54,557 nt of DNA from Lachnospiraceae bacterium EP-SM-12S-S03. GTDB taxonomy: Bacteria; Bacillota; Clostridia; Lachnospirales; Lachnospiraceae. The notes under the pieces were generated by a model that ran no database searches, was not told the DNA's origin, and saw only the letters and a program-made list of their open reading frames with translations. Positions 30,600-47,420 of the stretch are shown one piece after another. The DNA is taken from contig JAJBSL010000017.1 of NCBI GenBank assembly GCA_020540725.1, positions 1-54,557 on the forward strand, in the 5' to 3' direction. The position numbers were made by a program, and so were the translations under genes. Within the stretch, counting starts at the first letter, position 1; the number at the start of each line of letters is the position of its first letter.

Positions 30600-31430
30600 T
30601 TAACCATCCGATTTTTTTATATAAAACATAATTTTTGTGATGTACTCGTTTTCATCGTGAGTTGTGATGTAGTCATTGATACAGAACTCATAGGAATCAG
30701 ATATGATCTGCAGGGAATGTAATCTACAATAATCTAGGATTTTTTGATAAGAACGGCCAATCGACAAATAATCCCCCACGTGATAGATGCTTACACACTC
30801 CCCGGCAGGCAAACACTTGATGTTGCCCTCCTGATTCGTTTCTTCAATTGGAAGAAACGCAAATGTAGCTTCTGTAAATCGCTCTTTCAGAATATGTTCA
30901 AGAGGGACAATCACACCACATTGGAAAAAGATTGGCAATTCATTCTGAAAAGAATCCGCAAAACATTTTTTCGTCGCAATACTAATTTCTCTCGAACCGT
31001 ATGGCTTTTCCACTTCACCGACCAAAATATGCTGTTCATTCGTTTTCTCAATAAAAACTTCATTTTCCTTATCCCGGTATATTTTCGTATCCTCCATTTG
31101 CGTGCATCGGTGCAATAGTCGGTTACGGATCAAGCGTAGTTCTTGAATCTGACGTTCAATAGCTGTAACTTGTTTTCTCATAGCGATCAGACTGCTGTCA
31201 ATATTATAATGTTGCATATGCTCTCGGATTTCCGCCAGAGAAAAACCAATTTTTTTCATAATCAATATGGTATCCAAATAATCGATCTGCTGAGAACTGT
31301 AATAACGATACCCGTTATTCGGATCTACATAGGCAGGCCGAAACAATCCGATTTTATCGTAGAAGATCAAAGTCTGTTTGGATATATTCTGGTATTTCGA
31401 CAACTCGCCGATTGAAAACAGATTCTCCAT
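30600..31430 (-). CDS. MerR-family regulator with effector-binding domain (probable yitT activator)
   Basis: The 276-residue protein has the MerR DNA-binding domain (about 5-72, with FYDKIGLFRPAYV and GYRYYSSQQ). A coiled coil (about 80-110) and a C-terminal GyrI/BmrR-like ligand domain (about 120-272) follow. The inducer is unknown. The start has GGAGG about 6 nt upstream. The dyad in the overlong spacer of the yitT promoter, 80-110 nt beyond its stop, makes yitT its likely target. It lies 57 nt after pucR, so it may be expressed with that gene, linking it to the amidohydrolase cluster, or from an unrecognised promoter. Confidence 0.88.
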   Translation of the reverse strand: MENLFSIGELSKYQNISKQTLIFYDKIGLFRPAYVDPNNGYRYYSSQQIDYLDTILIMKKIGFSLAEIREHMQHYNIDSSLIAMRKQVTAIERQIQELRLIRNRLLHRCTQMEDTKIYRDKENEVFIEKTNEQHILVGEVEKPYGSREISIATKKCFADSFQNELPIFFQCGVIVPLEHILKERFTEATFAFLPIEETNQEGNIKCLPAGECVSIYHVGDYLSIGRSYQKILDYCRLHSLQIISDSYEFCINDYITTHDENEYITKIMFYIKKSDG

Positions 31431-31487
31431 ACTCTCCTCCTTGCACTATAACTCCTATATTCTTATCTCTATAAACATTGTCGGGAT

Positions 31488-33119
31488 TTACAACTCTAGA
31501 AACTGTAACAATATTTCCAGCTTGAGTCTCGACATATAAGAATCCCATTCAATCTGTAATATTGTATTCAGCTTATCAATACGCTTTCTTATGGTATTAA
31601 TATGAACATACATTTTCTCTGCCGTCACACTGAAATTCATGTTATTCTCCAAATAAATCTTTAATGTTCTAAGGAGTTCTATATTCTTCTCGTCTTTCAT
31701 AAGATTCCGGTATTCTAAAAGCATTTTATCCAACTCTTCATCCGGAATCTGAAGCCAGGTGAATGGTCCTATCGTCTCATAATCCCAAATTTTTCTCTCC
31801 GGATAAAGTTTTTTCCCCATTTTCATAATCTTTCCACATTTTTCCAATGCTTCCTTCAATTGGGATAACTTCTTTCCTTCTCTGAGAACTGCGAATTCCA
31901 GCTCCATGTCCGGGCATTTTTCGGTGATCTTATTATAAAAGTCTAAGATTCTCTCCTGAATGTCTTCCTTTTTATGCTTTTCTGACTCCCAAATCTCTGC
32001 CAAAATCACTCCTGCATTTTCATCAAGAAATGCTATTTTTGAGTTTTTGGATATGCTGCTGCTTTGAAAAACAGTAATATACATTTCTCGCTTATCTCTT
32101 GCACTGATCTGCTCATTTTTCTGATGAAATAAAATACAGACATAGCGGGTATTCATGGAAATGCCCTGCTGGCTTGCCTGGTAAAGAAGACGTTCTTCAT
32201 CCTCACCTGTGGAATGCATGGCAAGTAATACAAGGTTCTCAATTCCCATATTCCCGATGCTTTGGGCAATCACAATCTGCTCATATATAGCCTGAAGCAG
32301 AAGATAAGCGATACGGATCGAGTATTCGTCATAATAATCCAGAAATTCCCTGGATTCCATTACAACAAAATAAGCCTGAAGATTTCCTCCCGCACTGATC
32401 GGAATTAAAATCCAACTGACACGTGCTCCGTCTCTTTCTCTTTCGTTGCAAAGACGAATCCTCGTCATCTGGATATAATCACAAAGTGTATAACTGTTAT
32501 GATCAATCTGAGGATCCCAATAATCACTTTCCTTCAATCCATATCTCTCCGAAATCCTTTTAAAGTTCGCGGAACTATAGTATCCTTCCTGCTCTCCCAC
32601 ATCGTATAGAAATGCCGGAAAATCCATTTCCACTTCTACTGCCTGAAGTATCTTTTTAATTTTCTGAACTTTGTATGTTGTATCTCCTAAAGTAAGCGCA
32701 CCGTTCTTATGAATCTGAAACCGTCGGATCGTACGATTCATAACAATCGTATTCACCTGCTGCATCACTTCCATATATCCGATTTCAAACGGCATACTGA
32801 TCAGTGGGATCTGATACTGGTTAAAAAGTCTTATAATTTCTTCCGGTATCTGTGACAAATGTCTTCCCCGCTTAATCATCATCCCTGAAATCGTCTGCAT
32901 AAAACCTTCGTCAAACGCATTCTTTATGGAACCAGGCACCATAGAAATAGAATATCCGGAAGTGATAATCAGTTCTTTCCCCTTTGTCCACCGATACGCA
33001 TCAGGGGCATCCATGATCGCGATTCCTTGCACTTCCTTATGCAGTCCTTTCTCACCGGCCACAATGTAAAAGTCCTTAAAAAATTCCTGCTCTAATAAAG
33101 TCTTGATCGCAATTCCCAT
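31488..33119 (-). CDS. PucR-family transcriptional regulator
   Basis: The 543-residue protein has the N-terminal PucR domain (about 8-130, with GIAIMDAPDAYRWTKGKELIIT-like sequence), a long middle sensory region and the C-terminal PucR helix-turn-helix (about 485-540, FSVTAEKMYVHINTIRKR). Relatives control purine catabolism (Bacillus PucR) and amino-acid or peptide use (CdaR and AdeR types). It sits directly after the two amidohydrolases and transporter-like proteins, and a candidate promoter (33160-33188) could give separate expression. Control of that cluster is the simplest reading, possibly through the twin palindromes at 37317-37369. Confidence 0.88.
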   Translation of the reverse strand: MGIAIKTLLEQEFFKDFYIVAGEKGLHKEVQGIAIMDAPDAYRWTKGKELIITSGYSISMVPGSIKNAFDEGFMQTISGMMIKRGRHLSQIPEEIIRLFNQYQIPLISMPFEIGYMEVMQQVNTIVMNRTIRRFQIHKNGALTLGDTTYKVQKIKKILQAVEVEMDFPAFLYDVGEQEGYYSSANFKRISERYGLKESDYWDPQIDHNSYTLCDYIQMTRIRLCNERERDGARVSWILIPISAGGNLQAYFVVMESREFLDYYDEYSIRIAYLLLQAIYEQIVIAQSIGNMGIENLVLLAMHSTGEDEERLLYQASQQGISMNTRYVCILFHQKNEQISARDKREMYITVFQSSSISKNSKIAFLDENAGVILAEIWESEKHKKEDIQERILDFYNKITEKCPDMELEFAVLREGKKLSQLKEALEKCGKIMKMGKKLYPERKIWDYETIGPFTWLQIPDEELDKMLLEYRNLMKDEKNIELLRTLKIYLENNMNFSVTAEKMYVHINTIRKRIDKLNTILQIEWDSYMSRLKLEILLQFLEL

Positions 33120-33159
33120 GTTGCCCCTTCCTTTCCTTTTTCCTCTGTTATTTTTGCAA

Positions 33160-33188
33160 GTTTAACACTTTCTCTTATTTTTTGTCAA
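33160..33188 (-). promoter_or_regulatory. Candidate pucR promoter
   Basis: TTGACA and TTAAAC (minus strand) are 17 nt apart, about 40 nt before the pucR ATG. The -10 is imperfect. Confidence 0.5.
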
Positions 33189-33207
33189 GCTATTTCACGC
33201 TTTTCAA

Positions 33208-34380
33208 TTATGCGTGATTTTTCAGCCAATCCATTGCTGCCTTTGCATAAATAGCTGCTGCAGTCGGAAGGCATGTCTCATTAAACTTTGCATGTGGATT
33301 GTGGTGCCCTACCCACTCTTTCTCATCTTCTACACCGGCTCCGATAAAGAAATAACTTGCCGGAACCCTCTCTCCAAAATAGGAGAAATCCTCCGATCCC
33401 ATTACATGAAATGTTGGATATGCCTTAAGTTCCGGATCCAGTTCTTTCACAGAATGAATGATCTCTTCATTTAACTCCACGTCACATTTTACTGCCGGGA
33501 CATCATTCAGCACTTCAATCTCAAATTCCGAACGATACGTCTCAGCTACACTTTTTGTCACTTCATGAATACGACGAATTATGTACTCTCTGACCTCTGC
33601 TTTAAATGTTCTTAACGACCCTTCCAAAACTGCACGTTGTGGAATTACATTAAATGCACTTCCCGATTCAAAATGTCCAATCGTAAGAACCGCTTCTTCC
33701 ATTGCGGAAATTTCTCTCGCAATCAGTTCCTGCAACGCAAGATACACGTGTACTCCGGTGTTAATCGGATCGATGCCAAGCTCCGGTGTGGAACCATGAG
33801 TTCCCTTTCCCGTCAAAACAATTCGAAAACCATAAACCGATGTCATTGGGTATTCTCCATAAATGATTTTCTTATTTTCACTATTTGGAGCTACATGCAT
33901 TGCAAATGCAGCATCTACCTTCGGATTCTCCAAAACTCCTGCATCCAAAGCCGCCTTTGCCCCTTTAAATGTCTCTTCCGCCGATTGGAACAATAGCTTT
34001 ACTGTACCTTTCAGCTCACCTTCATGCTCTTTTAAAAGTTTTGCTGCTCCTAGAAGTGTCGTTGCATGCATATCATGTCCACAAGCATGCATACAACCAT
34101 TTTCCGATGCAAATGGCTCTCCTGACTCTTCTGTCACCGGCAGCCCATCCATATCGCTTCGAAGCATAAAGCATTTTTCACCGTTTCCGATCAAGGCAAC
34201 AATGCAAGAACAATCCTCGTACACCGTATAGTTAATTCCCATCTTCTCCAGTTCTTTTGCTACAAACTCCACTGTCTTCGGAAGGTGTAACCCAATCTCC
34301 GGCATTTGATGAAGAGCTCTTCTCCATTTGCTTAACTCCTGTTGAAGTGCATTTGCTTCTTTTAATAATTGGTTCTCCAT
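33208..34380 (-). CDS. M20-family amidohydrolase (AbgA / N-acyl amino acid hydrolase type)
   Basis: The 390-residue zinc peptidase has the metal and catalytic motifs MLRSDMDGLPVTE, HACGHDMH (Cys about 100, His about 102), FQSAEET (Glu pair about 134-135), and a later MGSEDFSYF. The layout matches the IAA-amino acid / N-acyl-L-amino acid / AbgA-type amidohydrolases that release amino acids from N-acylated or p-aminobenzoyl conjugates. I chose the ATG at 34380 (GGGG 8 nt upstream), which avoids overlap with the upstream gene. It is paired with an AbgB-like gene, suggesting a two-subunit or two-step hydrolase. The substrate is unknown. Confidence 0.9.
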   Translation of the reverse strand: MENQLLKEANALQQELSKWRRALHQMPEIGLHLPKTVEFVAKELEKMGINYTVYEDCSCIVALIGNGEKCFMLRSDMDGLPVTEESGEPFASENGCMHACGHDMHATTLLGAAKLLKEHEGELKGTVKLLFQSAEETFKGAKAALDAGVLENPKVDAAFAMHVAPNSENKKIIYGEYPMTSVYGFRIVLTGKGTHGSTPELGIDPINTGVHVYLALQELIAREISAMEEAVLTIGHFESGSAFNVIPQRAVLEGSLRTFKAEVREYIIRRIHEVTKSVAETYRSEFEIEVLNDVPAVKCDVELNEEIIHSVKELDPELKAYPTFHVMGSEDFSYFGERVPASYFFIGAGVEDEKEWVGHHNPHAKFNETCLPTAAAIYAKAAMDWLKNHA

Positions 34381-34402
34381 AACGCATTCCCCTTTCCACT
34401 TT

Positions 34403-35767
34403 TTACGCTTCATACATAGGTGTATAGTCCTCTTTCTTCTCACAAAACTCTCTCATGATCTTTTCCCGGATTTCCGGTTTCTTATACAAATCATATGCAA
34501 TGCCAGCCATTACCTGCGCTGCACTCAGTGCACCCTTTGCCCCAATAGAGCTGCCTGTCGATGCCGTTGCCTGCCACGTATGCGGCGATACTGCCGCCGG
34601 CCAGCACGAGGTAGAAATCAGACACATTGGCATCATGTGACTTACATCTCCACTATCCGAAGAAGCAGTTAACGGATTGATCTGATACAAATCCCGCGCA
34701 CCTAGCTTTGTAGACAACGGAAGCCCTTCTGTATCATATAACTTCCTTGCTCTTTCTACATTTTCACTTGCAATTGTACTTTCTAACTTTGATGCAAATT
34801 CCATTTCCGCTTCCGTAAATTCCGGTAATTCTGCTTCTTTCAAGTTCTCATATGCCAGATCTGCGTATGCATGATTTTCTAAAAGTTCACAGCATCCGTA
34901 ATCAATTTTCATTTCCATGGATGTCTCTGTCATAAGACTTGCGCCTTCCGCCACTTTTTTCACACGCTCCAGAATTTCTTTTACATCAGAGATGTATGGT
35001 GCCCGGACAAAATACCAGGAACCTGCCCATGGCGGTACGATATTCGGAGAGAATCCTCCACTGTCCGTTGTATAATGAATCCTTGCCTTGGAAGTGACAT
35101 GCTCTCTTAAGTAGTTGACACCTACATTCATAAGCTCCACTGCATCCAGTGCACTTCGCCCAACTTCCGGGGCAAATGCTGCATGAGAACTTTTTCCTTT
35201 GAATTCAAAATGTGCAGATGCACTGGCGAGATAGCCGCTGTCATACACCATATTTGTACTCATCGGATGCCAGCTGATCGCCATGTCGCAATCATCAAAC
35301 ATATGATAATAAGCCATCTTTACTTTTCCGGATAGCAACTCTTCTTCCGGACAGCCGTAGAAACGGATCGTCCCTTCTCCCCCTTCATTTTCCAGAAATC
35401 TTTTGACTGCAATTGCAGCAACTGTAGATGCCGAACCCAATAAATTGTGTCCGCATCCATGGCCTGCCGCCCCTTCTTTCATTGCTTCTTTCTTGTCAGA
35501 CACCTTCTGTGACAAACCCGGAAGTGCATCATATTCACCAAGAATTGCGATCACAGGTTTCCCAGAACCATATTCTGCATAAAATGCATGTTTTAATTGC
35601 TCCTCATTTACAATGACAAAGCCTTCTTCAGATAACAATTTTCGAAAATAATCTGCGCTTTCTTTTTCTTCACCGCCTACTTCCGGATGATTCCAAAGTT
35701 TTTGGCAGCTATCCTGGCACAAAGAGTCTAAACTTTTCACTATTTGATGAACCTCTTTTTTTGTCAT
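34403..35767 (-). CDS. M20-family amidohydrolase, AbgB-like
   Basis: The 454-residue M20 peptidase has the AbgB pattern: ILGEYDALPGLSQ (about 75-87), GAAGHGCGHNLLGSA (about 98-112), the YGCPEEE acid pair, and the C-terminal SSDSGDVSHMMPM. E. coli AbgB forms the p-aminobenzoyl-glutamate hydrolase with AbgA; a similar pairing with the next gene is plausible. The start has GGGAGG 7 nt upstream. It follows the small membrane protein by 30 nt and belongs to the same apparent operon. No AbgT transporter is present; two unrelated membrane proteins take that place. Confidence 0.9.
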   Translation of the reverse strand: MTKKEVHQIVKSLDSLCQDSCQKLWNHPEVGGEEKESADYFRKLLSEEGFVIVNEEQLKHAFYAEYGSGKPVIAILGEYDALPGLSQKVSDKKEAMKEGAAGHGCGHNLLGSASTVAAIAVKRFLENEGGEGTIRFYGCPEEELLSGKVKMAYYHMFDDCDMAISWHPMSTNMVYDSGYLASASAHFEFKGKSSHAAFAPEVGRSALDAVELMNVGVNYLREHVTSKARIHYTTDSGGFSPNIVPPWAGSWYFVRAPYISDVKEILERVKKVAEGASLMTETSMEMKIDYGCCELLENHAYADLAYENLKEAELPEFTEAEMEFASKLESTIASENVERARKLYDTEGLPLSTKLGARDLYQINPLTASSDSGDVSHMMPMCLISTSCWPAAVSPHTWQATASTGSSIGAKGALSAAQVMAGIAYDLYKKPEIREKIMREFCEKKEDYTPMYEA

Positions 35768-35796
35768 ACCAATGCCTCCCCTATACTAATAATAAA

Positions 35797-36489
35797 TCAA
35801 GCTTTTTTTGCTGCATTCTTTAATGTTGCAAGTCCGATTGCAATACTGATAAATACGCATCCCATCGTTCCAAGCCAATTAGATGCACCTGGCAGCCAAT
35901 TGAATACGCCCATTCCAATTGCTGTATATAAAGCAATTGCAATAATAACCATGACTACACTGTGTTTTTTCATTTTTATTCCGAACTGAACGATCAGTGC
36001 TCCAAACAGCGCCGGAAGAAGATAATTAAGTGCTGAAATAACCGATTCCGGCAGCATTTCAAGAACAGACGTACCAAGGATTGCACCAATTGTCAATACA
36101 GATGTATTAATAATGATAGAAACTGCCATACCGATTGTTGCCACTACAGATCCCTTCTCGGTTCCCGGCTCAACTTCTGCTGCTACCTGCGCCATACTTG
36201 CACAAGGAATACGCATATTGGAAATATTTCCTGAAAGAAATGCCATATATGTTCCTGCAGGTCCCACTACCGGAAAGTAGGAAATCGGTTCTACGAACCA
36301 AAGCACACCAAATGCACTGGCTCCGCTTACAAATGCCGTAAGAAGCGCTGTTGGTTTCGGAAGCAATCCATAGAAAACTGCAAGCATGACTGCAGGTGCA
36401 AATGCAAGCAAAACACCAATATATCCTGTAAATTTACCAATTCTGTTTATTTTCGGCATATATTCATTTTTATAGAAATTGTTGCTCAT
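35797..36489 (-). CDS. Polytopic membrane protein, partner of the DUF5058-like protein; function unknown
   Basis: This 230-residue protein has about six hydrophobic segments. Its central motif VVGPAGTYMAFLSGNISN is followed by MRIPCASMAQV. I do not recognise a named transporter family. GGAGG lies 7 nt before the ATG. It is sandwiched between a DUF5058-like gene and two M20 amidohydrolases with short gaps (17 and 30 nt), so it very likely works with them, for example as half of an importer for their substrate. The GP-G-small residue motif resembles one in the DUF5058-like protein, hinting that the two are distantly related halves. Confidence 0.75.
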   Translation of the reverse strand: MSNNFYKNEYMPKINRIGKFTGYIGVLLAFAPAVMLAVFYGLLPKPTALLTAFVSGASAFGVLWFVEPISYFPVVGPAGTYMAFLSGNISNMRIPCASMAQVAAEVEPGTEKGSVVATIGMAVSIIINTSVLTIGAILGTSVLEMLPESVISALNYLLPALFGALIVQFGIKMKKHSVVMVIIAIALYTAIGMGVFNWLPGASNWLGTMGCVFISIAIGLATLKNAAKKA

Positions 36490-36505
36490 ATCTGTTCCTC
36501 CTACG

Positions 36506-37252
36506 TTAAATCAATGCTGTAATGATCATGGCGCCCAAAATTGTAATCGTCAGAGCCCATTCTCTTAACCAGCCGATATTTTTCTTCTCTGCAACTGTTG
36601 ATAGCACGTACATAATTACAGCTCCTAATATACATGCGATTGCGTTTTTGTTTGCAGCGCTCATTGTTGCTGCATCCGCTTTCTGTATGAGCGAATAGAT
36701 TGGTTTTGAAAGATGACTTGCCACCATTGCTGCAAACACACCGATGATGGCTGTGGATGCGATGGTTGTAAGTGTTCCTGAATTTCCCTTAGACAATTTG
36801 TGCTCTATTTTCTCCATTTTGTTCGCAGAAAATGTTCCGAACAGTACCCATCCTATAGAACAAAGAATCATAGTCCAAATTGCCATGGTAAGCGCTTCTT
36901 TTGTCATTGGATCCGTTCCCAATGTTACACCGACCGCTGATGTTCCCAGTCCTGCCGCAATTGACTCGAACATAACCGAACCGATCATAGACAGTCTCAT
37001 CCATCCAACAGGCCCTCCTACCGTAACGAGAAGCGACAACATACCGCTCAAAACAACGATAGACGGCCCAATTGATGTCACCGCACTACTTTTCACCGCC
37101 TTCTTCATCTGTGTCTTCGTCAATCCAACTTTTTCTCCTGAACTATAAGCCTCCCTCATAAAAAGCACAGCCTGTATGATTACAAATACTACCGGAATAC
37201 CGCAGGCGATCCACATAGGCAAGCTGTTTGCAAGTTCCATTACATCCATCAT
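36506..37252 (-). CDS. DUF5058-like polytopic membrane protein
   Basis: The 248-residue protein has about six to seven hydrophobic segments. Its conserved-looking stretch is SIGPSIVVLSGMLSLLVT followed by GGPVGWMRLS (about 58-86). Composition, length and motif recall DUF5058 (PF16481); this is from memory and not a search. It heads the run of two membrane proteins, AbgB-like and AbgA-like hydrolases and PucR. Either of two adjacent ATGs could be used (GGAGG 5 or 8 nt upstream). The arrangement suggests a two-component carrier for a conjugated amino acid or dipeptide. Two identical palindromes lie upstream. Confidence 0.75.
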   Translation of the reverse strand: MMDVMELANSLPMWIACGIPVVFVIIQAVLFMREAYSSGEKVGLTKTQMKKAVKSSAVTSIGPSIVVLSGMLSLLVTVGGPVGWMRLSMIGSVMFESIAAGLGTSAVGVTLGTDPMTKEALTMAIWTMILCSIGWVLFGTFSANKMEKIEHKLSKGNSGTLTTIASTAIIGVFAAMVASHLSKPIYSLIQKADAATMSAANKNAIACILGAVIMYVLSTVAEKKNIGWLREWALTITILGAMIITALI

Positions 37253-37316
37253 TTTTTCCTCCTTTTTCTTGTTTCCTCTTTTGTCTCATCATACGTTTTC
37301 TCAGAAAATAAAAAAA

Positions 37317-37369
37317 TGAAAATATTTTCACTTTTCGACATTTTTCATTGCATAGTGAAAATATTTTCA
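37317..37369. promoter_or_regulatory. Twin identical palindromes upstream of the DUF5058/M20 cluster
   Basis: TGAAAATATTTTCA occurs at 37317-37330 and again at 37356-37369, 39 bp centre to centre, in the gap before the DUF5058-like gene. A related dyad (TTTTCT-C-AGAAAA) lies at about 37296-37308. Two equal sites nearly four helical turns apart suggest a cooperative operator. A CodY-box-like sequence overlaps the second site with three mismatches. No clear -35/-10 pair was found. Confidence 0.65.
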
Positions 37370-37406
37370 TTTTCTGAATTTTATTTATAAAATTTTGTCA
37401 GTTCTT

Positions 37407-37487
37407 CTATTTGTGCTTGTATCCTGTATAGAGTGTCATGAAAAGACAGACTACCATTGCCCAGGCCCAAAATTTATGATTTTTCAT
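37407..37487 (-). CDS. 26-residue single-span membrane peptide (DUF6219-like)
   Basis: A short frame encodes a 26-residue peptide: MKNHK, then a hydrophobic stretch with two Trp and one Cys, then YTGYKHK. GGAGG lies 8 nt before the ATG, a near-ideal site. It overlaps the 3' end of the P1B ATPase gene by 14 nt, so it is translationally coupled to it. The sequence pattern (charged N-end, one helix, TGYK tail) recalls DUF6219 small proteins of Lachnospiraceae; that name is from memory. It may be a regulatory or accessory peptide of the pump. Confidence 0.7.
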   Translation of the reverse strand: MKNHKFWAWAMVVCLFMTLYTGYKHK

Positions 37488-39585
37488 AATATCCGCCTCC
37501 TCTATTTTCATTTTTCAAAAGTAAGTCCTGCATGCTCTTTAAACTGATTCCAAGTGTTGATACGTTATGGAACAAGGCCGATGTAGTCGGTTGCAAAACA
37601 CCGGCAACACCAAGCAGTATCAATGCCGCATTAAAGCCAACAATAAAATGATAGTTTTTCTTGATCCGTTTCATCAGACCATCACTCAGCCGTTTTAGTA
37701 CAACAAGCTCATATAAGTCTCCTTCGATCATGATATCGGCTATTTCTCTGGCTATTTCTGCACCTTCACTGACTGCAACCCCTGCATCTGCTGCCGAAAG
37801 CGCCGGAGAGTCGTTGATTCCATCGCCAATCATCACAACCCTTCTTCCTTCCGCTTTTTCCTGCTCGATAAAATTTGCTTTATCTTCCGGAAGAACTTCT
37901 GCATAATATTCGTCCACACCGATTTTCCCTGCAATGGATGCCGCTGTTCTCTCGCTGTCACCGGTCATCATAACAATTTTGGAAAAGCCGCACTCTTTTA
38001 AGAGCCTTACAATATCTTTCGCTTCTTCCCGAAGTGGATCTTCAATACAGATCACGGCTGCCAGTTTATTCTCAATGGCAAGGTACAAATGCGAATACTC
38101 TACCGGAAGCGCATCAAACAGCGCTTCTTTTCCTGCAGGGACTTTACATTTTTCATCTTCAAACACAAAGTGATAGCTTCCGATGATTGCCTTCTTTTCA
38201 TTGATCGTTGTAGAAATACCATGAGCAACCATATATTCAACTTTTGAATGCATTTCTTCATGATCCAGATGCTTGTTCTTTGCCGCACTCACAATTGCTT
38301 TCGCCATGGAGTGTGGAAAATGTTCTTCCATGCATGCTGCAATACGGAGCAATTCATCCGGAGTCTCATCGCAAAAAGAAACTACCTCTTTCACAGTAGG
38401 TTTCGCCTCTGTGAGTGTTCCTGTCTTATCAAATACAATCGTATCCGCCTCTGCAACAGCCTCCAAAAATCTGCCGCCTTTTACCGTAATATTATAAATA
38501 CCGGCCTCCCGGATTGCAGAAAGCACCGAAAGGGGCATTGCCAGTTTTAATGCACAGGAAAAATCCACCATCAAAACAGATAACATTTTTGTGATATTTC
38601 TTGTAAACAGATACGTTAATGCAGTACCTGCCAACGTATATGGAACAAGTTTATCTGCCAAATGTTCTGCTTTTCCTTCCAATGCAGACTTTAATTTCTC
38701 CGATTCTTCGATCATGGTTACGATCTTTTCGAATCGGCTGGATCCTCCGGCCTGTTTCACGCAAATCGTCAATTCCCCTTCTTCCAGTACGGTTCCTGCA
38801 TAAACAAAGCTTCCAGAAGCTCTGCGGACCGGAGCAGATTCTCCGGTCAGCGATGCCTGATTGACCATCGCTTCACCTTCACACACTGTACCGTCAAATG
38901 GGATGATTGTTCCCATGTGAACAGAAACCAAATCTCCTTCTTTCACCTCGGAAATCGGAACCAGAATCTCCTGTTCTCCACTTTTCAGCCATACTTTTCC
39001 TACATTCAGCGACATAGTTCTTGCAAGATCATCTACGGATTTCTTGTGAGTCCACTCTTCTAACAGTTCCCCGATGCCAAGAAGAAACATGATGGAACTT
39101 GCGGTAGAAACATCATTCCTCAGTACCGATACCCCAATCGCAGTTGCATCCAGAACCGGAACTTCTATCTTTCGTCTCCATAACGTTTTGAATCCTTCCC
39201 AAATGTAACCTACAGATTTACACGTTACATAACATGCACGCACGGGATACGGGAGAAACAATTTCCCCGCATAATGAAACACAACCTTCCCCACAAGCTT
39301 CTCTTGATATTTTGCATTGAGTTCTCTTCCCGAATTTTCAAGATATCCTGCCGGAACTTCTACTTTTTCATAAGAGAATTTCTTAAGCTCCTGAAAAAGA
39401 TCCTTCCGTTCACCCTCATAGCATATGACCGCATCGCATGTGCGTTCGTATACTTTTGCAGACGTAACCATCCGGCAACTCCTTAGATAATAAAGAAGAA
39501 GATCCGCCTGTTCAAAAGTCATTCTCTTTTGCAGCAGATGGATTCTAACTCTTCCCTTTGTCTCATGTTTTACTACAAATCTCAC
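37474..39585 (-). CDS. P1B-type heavy-metal ATPase with SCALK in place of CPC
   Basis: The 703-residue P-type ATPase has an N-terminal ferredoxin-like HMA_2 region (about 1-80) without CxxC, the actuator TGES (about 248-251), the ion-site motif SCALK (about 343-347) where CPC or SPC is usual, DKTGT (Asp about 386), a HFPHS nucleotide-site motif (HP variant, about 414-418), and GDGINDSPAL. The C-terminal FHNVSTLGIS recalls the CtpC branch (manganese). The ion is not known; iron or manganese export is favoured because a Fur-type gene and Fur-like box lie upstream. It follows a DUF6110-like gene by 13 nt. Confidence 0.88.
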   Translation of the reverse strand: MRFVVKHETKGRVRIHLLQKRMTFEQADLLLYYLRSCRMVTSAKVYERTCDAVICYEGERKDLFQELKKFSYEKVEVPAGYLENSGRELNAKYQEKLVGKVVFHYAGKLFLPYPVRACYVTCKSVGYIWEGFKTLWRRKIEVPVLDATAIGVSVLRNDVSTASSIMFLLGIGELLEEWTHKKSVDDLARTMSLNVGKVWLKSGEQEILVPISEVKEGDLVSVHMGTIIPFDGTVCEGEAMVNQASLTGESAPVRRASGSFVYAGTVLEEGELTICVKQAGGSSRFEKIVTMIEESEKLKSALEGKAEHLADKLVPYTLAGTALTYLFTRNITKMLSVLMVDFSCALKLAMPLSVLSAIREAGIYNITVKGGRFLEAVAEADTIVFDKTGTLTEAKPTVKEVVSFCDETPDELLRIAACMEEHFPHSMAKAIVSAAKNKHLDHEEMHSKVEYMVAHGISTTINEKKAIIGSYHFVFEDEKCKVPAGKEALFDALPVEYSHLYLAIENKLAAVICIEDPLREEAKDIVRLLKECGFSKIVMMTGDSERTAASIAGKIGVDEYYAEVLPEDKANFIEQEKAEGRRVVMIGDGINDSPALSAADAGVAVSEGAEIAREIADIMIEGDLYELVVLKRLSDGLMKRIKKNYHFIVGFNAALILLGVAGVLQPTTSALFHNVSTLGISLKSMQDLLLKNENRGGGYYEKS

Positions 39586-40011: not shown

Positions 40012-40455
40012 TTAGTATTCCTCTATCCCCCGGCATACAACACATGGCTGGATAACCATATGCTTCATTTTCTGTTCTTTGATATAACCTCCTGCTTTCA
40101 ATCCCTCCCGAATCACCTTTTGAAATTCCCGGGCTGAGAGTCTGCACACAGATCCGTCATCGAGCAAAATAGCACATGCATTTTCTCCGTGACAATCCGC
40201 TCCACATTCTCCCCCGCATTCTTCCGTGATCTTATACATATTTTTTCGATCGATCGCTCCGATTTCCTCCAGTGTATTCAGCATCCTGTAAATCGTCGCA
40301 ATTCCAATCTGCGGATCTTTCTTGGATGCACGATAATAAATTTCTTTGCAACAGGAACAATTTTCTTCCATAATGATGTCAAGCAGCATGATCCTTTGCT
40401 TTGTCATCCTACAACCACATTCCTTCAACTTCTGAATAATCATTTCCTTCTGCAT
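40012..40455 (-). CDS. Fur-family transcriptional regulator with atypical metal-site region
   Basis: The product (147 residues from the ATG at 40455, GGAG 9 nt upstream; an ATG two codons earlier is possible) has the Fur winged-helix part (about 1-80, with QIGIATIYRMLNTLEEIGAI). The usual HHHH...CxxC stretch is replaced by a cysteine-rich segment CGGECGADCHGENAC and a later lone Cys. A C-terminal CVVC pair remains. The altered site suggests different metal or redox sensing. It follows the activase gene by about 14 nt and may be co-transcribed with the double-cubane reductase genes. A Fur-like box lies just past its stop. Confidence 0.88.
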   Translation of the reverse strand: MQKEMIIQKLKECGCRMTKQRIMLLDIIMEENCSCCKEIYYRASKKDPQIGIATIYRMLNTLEEIGAIDRKNMYKITEECGGECGADCHGENACAILLDDGSVCRLSAREFQKVIREGLKAGGYIKEQKMKHMVIQPCVVCRGIEEY

Positions 40456-40468
40456 ATTCATTTACTCC

Positions 40469-44920: not shown

Positions 44921-45745
44921 TCAAAATATCCAGATCTTAAACGGTACAAACCGTCCTACCCCGATCAGTATCACAAGATAAACGGCAGTTACAACATATG
45001 CCACATAATCTCTGTTTTTGTAAACGAGAGGTTTCATCTTCGTTCTTCCATCTCCGCCACGGTAGCATCTCGCTTCCATTGCCATTGCAAGGTCATTGGC
45101 ACGGCGGAATGCAGATACAAAAAGCGGTACAAGTATTGGAATCATACTTTTGGCTTTCTGCACAATATTTCCGCTCTCAAGATCTGCTCCCCTTGCAATC
45201 TGTGCTTTCATAATCTTATCTGTTTCTTCCAGAAGAAGCGGAATAAAACGAAGCGCGATCGACATCATCATGGCAATCTCATGTACGGGAACCTTGATCT
45301 TATTTAATGGTCTTAACAGCCGCTCAATTCCATCTGTCAGTTCATTCGGTGTTGTAGTCAACGTCATCAGGGAGGAACCGACAATCAGATAGATCAATCG
45401 AAGCACCATATACACCGATGCCCGCAACCCATCTTCCGTGATTTTAATAAATCCAACGGATACAAGTATATTTCCCGTTGTTGTGAAAAACAGGTTGAAT
45501 ATGGTTGTGATCAGAAGAAGCAGAATGATCGGCTTCAATCCTTTTGTTATAAATTTGAATGGCACTTTGGATGTGCGGATGACCGCAACCAAAAATACGG
45601 TGCAGATCACATACCCAAGTACACTTTTGAATAAAAACAGCGAAATCAGGTACAATAGCGTACATACGATTTTCACTCTCGGATCGAGTTTGTGTATGAC
45701 ACTGTCTGTCGGATAATACTGTCCTATCGTTATATCTCTTATCAT
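44921..45745 (-). CDS. ecfT: ECF transporter transmembrane component
   Basis: EcfT is the scaffold that links S-components to the ATPases for vitamin or metal uptake. The 274-residue protein has about five hydrophobic helices and two Ala-Arg-Gly-type motifs in the coupling helices (AQIARGADLE about 180-189 and EARCYRGG about 229-236). The start overlaps the ecfA2 stop by 4 nt (ATGA). No S-component gene is in the window, so this is the shared group II module. It lies upstream of truA. Confidence 0.93.
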   Translation of the reverse strand: MIRDITIGQYYPTDSVIHKLDPRVKIVCTLLYLISLFLFKSVLGYVICTVFLVAVIRTSKVPFKFITKGLKPIILLLLITTIFNLFFTTTGNILVSVGFIKITEDGLRASVYMVLRLIYLIVGSSLMTLTTTPNELTDGIERLLRPLNKIKVPVHEIAMMMSIALRFIPLLLEETDKIMKAQIARGADLESGNIVQKAKSMIPILVPLFVSAFRRANDLAMAMEARCYRGGDGRTKMKPLVYKNRDYVAYVVTAVYLVILIGVGRFVPFKIWIF

Positions 45746-46584
45746 AATGCTTTCATAATCTCCTCTACTGCCTCATCAATGGTAGTTGCTGACACATCCA
45801 CCGGAAAACCATTTTCCTTCAAGGCATGCATAATATAAGTTACCTGCGGCGCCGCAAGTCCTACTTCTTCCAGTTCCTTATAATGTGCAAATACCTCCTT
45901 CGGTGTCCCATCAAACATTTTGCTTCCATGATTCATCACAATGATCCGGTCTACATATTTCGCAATATCTTCCATACTGTGGGATACCAACAGCACTGTC
46001 ATATCGCTTTCCTTATGAAGCCTGGCAATCTGATCCAGAATCTCATCTCGTCCCGCCGGATCAAGTCCTGCTGTCGGCTCATCCAGCACAAGCACTTTAG
46101 GGCGCATGGCAAGCACTCCTGCAATGGCAACCCGGCGCTTCTGCCCTCCCGAAAGCTCAAACGGGGACTGGTTATATAATTTCTCCGGAAATCCTACTGC
46201 CTCCAGAGCTTCTCGTGCACGCTTCTCACATTCTTCCCTGGAAAGTCCTTGATTTTTCGGTCCAAAGCAGACATCTGATAACACATCCACTTCAAAAAGC
46301 TGATGTTCCGGATACTGAAATACAAGTCCTACCTGACTTCTTAACGCCTTCATATTGTAACCGTCTGCATAAACATTTTCCCCATTGAAATAGTAGACGC
46401 CGTCTGTTGCTTTTAAAAGTCCGTTCAAATGCTGGATCAGAGTGGATTTGCCGGAACCCGTATGTCCGATGATCCCCACAAACTGCCCGTGCGCAATTTC
46501 AAGATCTACATCTTTTAATGCATGCTTCCGATAGGTTGTTCCTTCTCCATATATATAATTGATTTTTTCTAATTTGATTGACAT
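45742..46584 (-). CDS. ecfA2: ECF transporter ATPase 2
   Basis: The 280-residue ABC ATPase has Walker [10 protein letters not shown] (about 39-47), signature LSGGQKRRV and Walker [14 protein letters not shown], followed by the C-terminal domain ending in an EEIMKAL stretch. It forms a heterodimer with EcfA1. It starts 16 nt inside the end of ecfA1 and ends 4 nt inside ecfT, showing tight translational coupling. The substrate is set by unlinked S-components. Confidence 0.93.
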
Positions 46585-47420
46585 AATTCTTCTACCAACT
46601 CCTCTGTACTGAGAATTCCGTCTGTCAGTTGCACACCTTTTTTCTGAAGTTCATGGGCAAGCAATGTAACCTGCGGAACATCTAATCTGTATTTCTTCAA
46701 CTCTTCTACACGACTGAAAATACTTCGCGGAGTCCCCTCCATCACAACATGTCCTTTGTCCATGACAATGACGCGGTCCGCTCCCACAACTTCTTCCATA
46801 TAATGCGTAATGAGAATCACCGTTACATGCTCCCGTTTTCTCAGTTCCTCCACTGTCCGAATGACTTCTTTTCTGCCACACGGATCCAGCATAGCTGTCG
46901 GTTCATCCAGCACAATGCATTTCGGATGCATGGCAATCACACCTGCAATGGCAACCCTTTGTTTCTGGCCACCGGATAGTTTGTTCGGCGAATGATGTCG
47001 ATACTCAATCATTCCAACCTGATTCAAACTTTTTTCTACTCTTTCCCATATTTCATCGGTTGGAACACCAAGATTTTCCGGACCGAATCCCACATCTTCT
47101 TCTACAACTGTCCCAATGATCTGGTTATCCGGATTCTGAAACACCATTCCGGCAGTCTGACGTACATCCCAGATGTTATCCTCGTCTTTCGTATCCTTCC
47201 CATTTACCCACATGGTTCCACCTGTCGGCGTCAAAATAGCATTCATCTGCTTTGCCAATGTGGATTTCCCGGAACCATTATGCCCGAGAATGGCAATGAA
47301 CTGTCCCGGCTCTATGTCAAGATCCACTTCGTCGATGGCTCGCTGCGTGCCGATTACATTTCCTTCGTCATCCAGCTTTTCATATTCATATATCAGTTTG
47401 TCTGTCTTAATCATGCTCAT
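46569..47420 (-). CDS. ecfA1: ECF transporter ATPase 1
   Basis: The 283-residue ABC ATPase has Walker [14 protein letters not shown] (about 44-56), signature LSGGQKQRV, and Walker [13 protein letters not shown]. It is paired with ecfA2. In most Firmicutes ecfA1 follows rplQ; here the upstream gene is a DMT transporter 44 nt away. A small CACAC-TGTT-GTGTG hairpin lies in between. The start has GGGAAAG upstream. No promoter was recognised directly before it. Confidence 0.93.

Follow-up and report, generated by a model that had tools for sequence, protein, structure and literature searches.

The DUF5058-M2 locus

We analysed a 54,557-nucleotide contig of Lachnospiraceae bacterium EP-SM-12S-S03 (JAJBSL010000017.1; this whole stretch of DNA is hereafter referred to as the window), focusing on a group of genes for two small membrane proteins, DUF5058 and M2, two M20-family hydrolases and a PucR-family regulator. 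In their direction of reading, the genes are as follows:

36506–37252, minus strand: DUF5058 membrane protein, 248 amino acids, proposed carrier subunit 1 (PF16481 match and charge profile)
35797–36489, minus strand: M2, an unnamed polytopic membrane protein, 230 amino acids, proposed carrier subunit 2 (pairing and homologues)
34403–35767, minus strand: AbgB-like M20 metallohydrolase, 454 amino acids (identity to E. coli AbgB)
33208–34380, minus strand: AbgA-like M20D amidohydrolase, 390 amino acids from the likely ATG, the listed open reading frame (ORF) extending to 34443 (PF01546, 138.6 bits)
31488–33119, minus strand: PucR-family transcription regulator, 543 amino acids (PF07905, 94.7 bits; PF13556, 55.8 bits)

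This layout agrees with the first-pass annotation of the window, which had described four closely spaced genes and a PucR regulator behind them. The intergenic gaps DUF5058/M2, M2/AbgB-like and AbgB-like/AbgA-like are 16, 29 and 22 bases, respectively, the last being measured from the ATG at 34380. This ATG is preceded by aaaggggaatgcgtt (an aaagggga stretch), and the listed GTG start of the AbgA-like ORF, which overlaps the AbgB gene, is probably wrong. The starts of the AbgB-like, M2 and DUF5058 genes are preceded by GGAGG-like stretches. The PucR gene product has both the N-terminal PucR domain (PF07905) and the C-terminal helix-turn-helix region (PF13556). No known RNA family was found at gathering score in positions 31000–38000, and scans for promoters (17 found, shuffle mean 14.9) and terminators (5 found, shuffle mean 4.5) stayed near the shuffle level.

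DUF5058 matched PF16481 with 241.9 bits (cut-off 28.2) over the entire profile (1–222 of 222), and M2 gave no family match in the Pfam and NCBIfam searches. When 70 M2 members were searched against Pfam at E 0.01, the sole match was one weak MTABC_N (E 0.0091). By these searches neither protein falls into a known family of unrelated function, a point on which the first-pass annotation had made its proposal of a joint system depend. Neither matched a defence family, and no solved structure was related to either by sequence at E 10. In the protein collection, DUF5058 and M2 had 686 and 1169 homologues, respectively, at E <= 1e-3. The closest locus in a named genome was that of Faecalimonas umbilicata, with identities of 94% for DUF5058 and 93% for M2. 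A literature search for DUF5058, PF16481 or the DUF5058-M2 pair, mostly at the level of abstracts, found no paper.

The AbgB-like protein deserves its label: it shares 40% identity with AbgB of E. coli (179/449 columns; E 8e-110), has HmrA and Xaa-Arg dipeptidase as structural relatives, and keeps the GHGCGHN, PEEE and HP stretches in the alignment with HmrA. The label of its neighbour was looser. The AbgA-like protein is 26% identical to E. coli AbgA (101 bits), and among solved structures it scored 218 bits with a plant ILR1-like protein, 206 with Bacillus YxeP and 100 with the aminobenzoyl-glutamate utilization chain 3io1. A close AbgA was ruled out, since the ILR1-like protein and YxeP score higher; the protein is a generic M20D amidohydrolase, and a restriction of the system to AbgAB-like enzymes was not supported. 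Its HACGHD, AEE and HH-P stretches are kept in the alignment with the ILR1-like protein and YxeP. We take the conserved stretches of both enzymes to be metal-site motifs. According to a report on the E. coli system (PMC5082436), AbgA and AbgB are the subunits of p-aminobenzoyl-glutamate hydrolase, and a range of dipeptides is given there as not cleaved by this enzyme.

Gene pairing, neighbouring hydrolases and upstream palindromes

To locate further copies of the pair, we scanned a species-genome collection with the M2 alignment; 89 stretches were confirmed and 80 loci were kept. DUF5058, whole or in pieces, lies directly upstream of M2 in all 80 loci, which come mostly from Lachnospiraceae and other Clostridia, and also from Pyramidobacter, Fretibacterium, a few others and haloarchaea. 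A separate survey of the collection, with the PF16481 model and an M2 profile, covered 595 genomes of three phyla picked for known carriers of DUF5058. DUF5058 exceeded the cut-off in 62 of these genomes (23/299, 3/196 and 36/100 by phylum), at one to five loci per carrier genome. M2 adjoins DUF5058 at 88 of 88 such loci, and DUF5058 adjoins 88 of the 89 M2 loci, the odd one (G236) stopping at a contig end. This count omits DUF5058 matches below the cut-off (G172, G133 and G545:C3) as well as M2 matches that were both weak and partial (G308 and G221; E ~5e-4 to 7e-4). Split matches in G559:C35 and in G545:C1 were joined manually, giving one in each case.

We also picked genes ourselves at 127 loci, 126 of which contributed 130 M2 ORFs, pieces counted. 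DUF5058 was the next gene for 125 of them. The five exceptions are an ORF at a contig end (L153), three at loci where DUF5058 is present but broken or beneath an over-long ORF (L018, L022 and L134), and the second piece of a split M2 (L107). DUF5058 without an adjacent M2 was seen at a contig end (L109) and as front pieces of broken DUF5058 genes (L133, L022 and L035). These results support the earlier notion that the two membrane proteins form one genetic unit.

Some arrangements are peculiar. G538:C27 is the sole pair in reversed order, with M2 upstream of DUF5058. L077 and L079 each carry two tandem DUF5058-M2 pairs, duplicated as a pair, which in L077 are followed by four AbgB-like genes in a row. 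In a haloarchaeal locus (L107:5701–7879), M2 lies in two pieces ~1.4 kb apart, downstream of an intact DUF5058. A length-filtered search for natural single-gene fusions, with scoring confined to the 7995 candidates that had most words in common, gave 18 matches; two DUF5058-M2 chimeras (P0245 and P0051) were discounted, as each lacks pieces at the join and has one member sequence.

The neighbours of the pair were then counted at the same 127 loci, M20 genes being called by two models. An M20 gene is present within 4.5 kb for 108 of the 130 M2 ORFs; for 97 it directly follows the ORF on the same strand. Among M2 ORFs with complete flanks, the count was 55/60. A contiguity rule gave 96/130. The M20_dimer matches per carrier genome numbered 6 to 48 (18 genomes), and by our own arithmetic a 9-kb stretch would contain an M20 gene by chance with a frequency of a few per cent to less than twenty per cent. 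Thus the pair occurs mostly with M20 genes, rather than widely without them. The first-pass annotation had seen a hint of a two-half carrier here, an idea that draws genomic evidence from both the pairing and the M20 link.

For the remaining 22 M2 ORFs, nine adjoin another hydrolase gene: isochorismatase-type (L073 and L075), amidase (L129), amidohydrolase-1 (L149), M42 (L128, L130 and L151) or aminothiazoline-carboxylate hydrolase (L123 by Pfam and L153 by clustering). These assignments come from Pfam searches of one or two members per group, the rest being assigned by clustering. One further ORF (L142) has an M20-cluster gene that both M20 models overlooked. For the other 12 no hydrolase was recognised in neighbourhoods that were scanned in part, some stretches stopping at contig ends. 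A serine-dehydratase-alpha-type gene lies near the pair in L110; together with the aminothiazoline-carboxylate hydrolases of L123 and L153, it hints at cysteine-related substrates. Near the pair, AbgB-like genes alone were found for 41 of the 130 M2 ORFs, AbgA-like genes alone for 43 and both for 24. AbgA and AbgB together are therefore not the rule, as many related loci have only one of them.

Upstream of the DUF5058 gene, the window contains two exact copies of a 14-bp palindrome, with 65 and 104 bases, respectively, between their near ends and the start of the gene:

37317–37330, no strand: palindrome TGAAAATATTTTCA, operon-proximal copy (exact match)
37356–37369, no strand: palindrome TGAAAATATTTTCA, distal copy, 39 bp from the proximal one (exact match)

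We looked for such sites in the ~320 bases preceding DUF5058, using 77 of the 80 loci (28 of the 29 PucR loci); in the remainder, fewer than 150 bases precede the gene. Sites with three or fewer mismatches were present in 26 of 28 loci with PucR, as against 5 of 49 without it; in base-shuffled sequence the frequencies were 8% and 4%, respectively. Pairs spaced by exactly 39 bases, with up to seven mismatches in 28, were found in 13/28 PucR loci versus 2/49 others, and 39 is the commonest palindrome spacing in PucR loci. The paired palindromes are a new find, and the pattern makes them a candidate PucR operator.

Farther upstream, a P-type ATPase gene (PF00122 and PF00702; 37474–39585) directly precedes the operon. 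A FUR-family gene (40012–40461) adjoins genes for a BadF/BcrA-type ATPase and a 2-hydroxyglutaryl-CoA dehydratase D-component (PF01869 and PF06050; 40469–42806), probably the activator and a subunit of a 2-hydroxyacyl-CoA dehydratase. A CbiQ-type transmembrane protein and two ABC ATPases (44921–47420) look like the core of an energy-coupling-factor transporter.

Predicted topology and fold of the membrane proteins

We assessed the membrane topology from the charge profile, hydropathy and a structure model, setting the segment boundaries ourselves from the latter two. DUF5058 and M2 each appear to cross the membrane fully six times and to have a third helix that is broken. In DUF5058 the positive loops, with mean lysine plus arginine counts over 65 rows, are 1–2 (5.8), 4–5 (4.0) and 6–7 (2.5); in M2 the positive parts are the N-terminal end (3.5), loop 5–6 (2.0) and the C-terminal end (2.4). 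This distribution suggests that both termini of DUF5058 are outside and both termini of M2 inside, so that the two proteins would have opposite orientations.

Both proteins have many of their best-conserved residues at the break in the third helix or close to it, among them those of the following segments:

36980–37015, minus strand: conserved DUF5058 segment GPVGWMRLSMIG, residues 80–91, at the broken third helix (P81, L87, I90 and G91 invariant, among others)
36229–36264, minus strand: conserved M2 segment GPAGTYMAFLSG, residues 76–87, ahead of the helix break (G76, G79, Y81, M82, F84 and G87 invariant, among others)

A similar 12-residue motif in the two proteins had been the initial ground for regarding them as halves of one carrier. 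The two 12-mers have four identities, and in 300 of 300 shuffles the best 12-mer match had at least four; the best match between the real proteins was 7, and the shuffle mean best was 6.1. The motif is no better than chance, and the two-half idea loses it as a ground. Profile comparison of DUF5058 with M2 at two depths also detected no similarity.

We modelled the Faecalimonas umbilicata DUF5058 and M2 as a stop-read-through fusion, from an alignment of 113 rows, 23 of them paired. The model had a predicted local distance difference test score (pLDDT) of 87.3 and a predicted template-modelling score (pTM) of 0.81, with the linker (242–257) under 50. In both halves the helix break follows the conserved segment. 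M2 alone was modelled with lower confidence (pLDDT 82.6, pTM 0.57) and gave no convincing fold match. The charge pattern and the co-fold together favour two opposite halves, and inverted repeats are likely.

A VIA-align search with the fusion listed 50 matches, which are weak and have ranges spanning both subunits; we take 48 of these 50 to be carriers of the UraA, SLC26, SLC4, SLC23 or Bor1 type. At the sequence level, hhalign comparison of DUF5058 and M2 with 30 PF00860 proteins detected no similarity, and the 70 M2 and 65 DUF5058 members gave no UraA/SLC26-type Pfam match at E 0.01.

Proposed function and comparison with known systems

From these observations, we consider it reasonably probable that DUF5058 and M2 form a two-subunit carrier that brings N-acyl or N-aroyl amino acids into the cell, where M20 enzymes cleave them, with PucR controlling the operon. 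The two proteins would be subunits of one secondary carrier, each representing one of two oppositely oriented repeats of about six crossings with a broken third helix, and the substrate site would lie where the two broken helices face one another. N-acyl or N-aroyl amino acids are the class suggested by the hydrolase neighbours, and the presence of AbgB makes p-aminobenzoyl-glutamate one candidate. In the cytoplasm, the M20 hydrolases encoded behind the carrier would then split the amide bond, freeing the amino acid, and PucR, from the next gene, would detect the substrate or the product and govern the operon through the two palindromes 39 bp apart, 5′ of DUF5058. The gene order, the nearly constant pairing, the association with hydrolases and the conservation of the palindromes are observed; the complex and its inverted topology are predicted; and we infer transport, its direction and energy source, the substrate, the fold and the operator function.

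Several points weigh against a UraA-type fold. Foldseek on the fusion gave a best E of 1.0e-3 with a TM score of ~0.3 and a root-mean-square deviation of ~15, with other folds mixed in, and VIA-align carries a warning on helical bundles. The UraA repeat has seven helices, versus the six crossings predicted here. For the candidate operator, the relatedness of the loci and their AT content weaken the palindrome count.

Export offers a different account of the same genes, as the M20 link is equally compatible with the pair being an exporter or exchanger of a cleavage product (such as the released acyl or aroyl group, or excess amino acid), with uptake left to another system. An AbgT-family match over the cut-off, present in 5 of 18 carrier genomes (G015 marginal, 32 bits), would suit this account; five more have weaker matches. 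However, no AbgT match was found in carrier genomes G001–G005, which we take to be Lachnospiraceae. The pair thus occurs without AbgT in some lineages and beside it in others. Moreover, the several enzyme families beside the pair are more easily reconciled with a shared substrate class than with one product, and we regard export as unlikely. Still less probable is a channel, or a membrane scaffold or sensor anchoring the hydrolases: one M2 relative (P0133) has a source name beginning 'Small-conductance mechanosensitive chan', but M2 itself has no Pfam or NCBIfam match, its 70 members yielded the one weak MTABC_N match, and the VIA-align matches listed for the fusion are mostly carriers. That DUF5058 and M2 are separate, merely co-transcribed carriers of different compounds would fit their undetectable sequence similarity, but it is very improbable given the 88/88 pairing, the pair-wise duplication in L077 and L079, the opposite topology and the weaker model of M2 alone.

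If the proposed import carrier is real, PF16481 and its unnamed partner family would gain a role as a two-subunit carrier, together with a regulator and a class of substrates. They would also exemplify, in living organisms, a large inverted-repeat carrier in which the two halves either never fused or came apart. The carrier could show, too, by what route gut Lachnospiraceae that lack AbgT acquire breakdown products of folate or other capped amino acids. More tentatively, and with slightly less confidence than doubt, we suggest a split large inverted-repeat carrier, possibly with a UraA/SLC26-like fold, encoded by obligately paired genes without detectable similarity; in bacteria and haloarchaea alike it would take up amide-linked amino acid derivatives in general, matched to the adjacent hydrolase.

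The operon resembles E. coli abgT-abgB-abgA in that AbgB and AbgA M20 hydrolases are encoded next to genes for transport and regulation. It differs in having two small membrane proteins instead of AbgT, which is described as the importer of p-aminobenzoyl-glutamate in PMC5082436, and PucR instead of the LysR-type AbgR; its AbgA-like protein is 26% identical. AbgT itself (PF03806) was not matched by DUF5058 or M2, nor at E 0.01 among the 70 M2 and 65 DUF5058 members. In E. coli yjiH-yjiG-iadA, a dipeptidase gene likewise directly follows the genes for two small membrane proteins, of 227 and 153 amino acids, but profile comparison matched neither DUF5058 with YjiH nor M2 with YjiG (hhalign probability ~0.1%), and no Gate-domain match was found among the 70 M2 and 65 DUF5058 members. 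The UraA, SLC26, SLC4 and SLC23 proteins are single-chain inverted-repeat carriers, to which 48 of the 50 VIA-align matches listed for the fusion, spanning both subunits, belong; they differ in showing no sequence similarity, a Foldseek TM of ~0.3 and a seemingly different crossing number. Paired-gene cases exist among the small multidrug resistance and Fluc proteins; unlike DUF5058 and M2, their subunits are much smaller, have another function and are detectably similar to their partners. Both groups are small proteins that are reported to form dimers of inverted topology (PMC6805155, PMC3755343).
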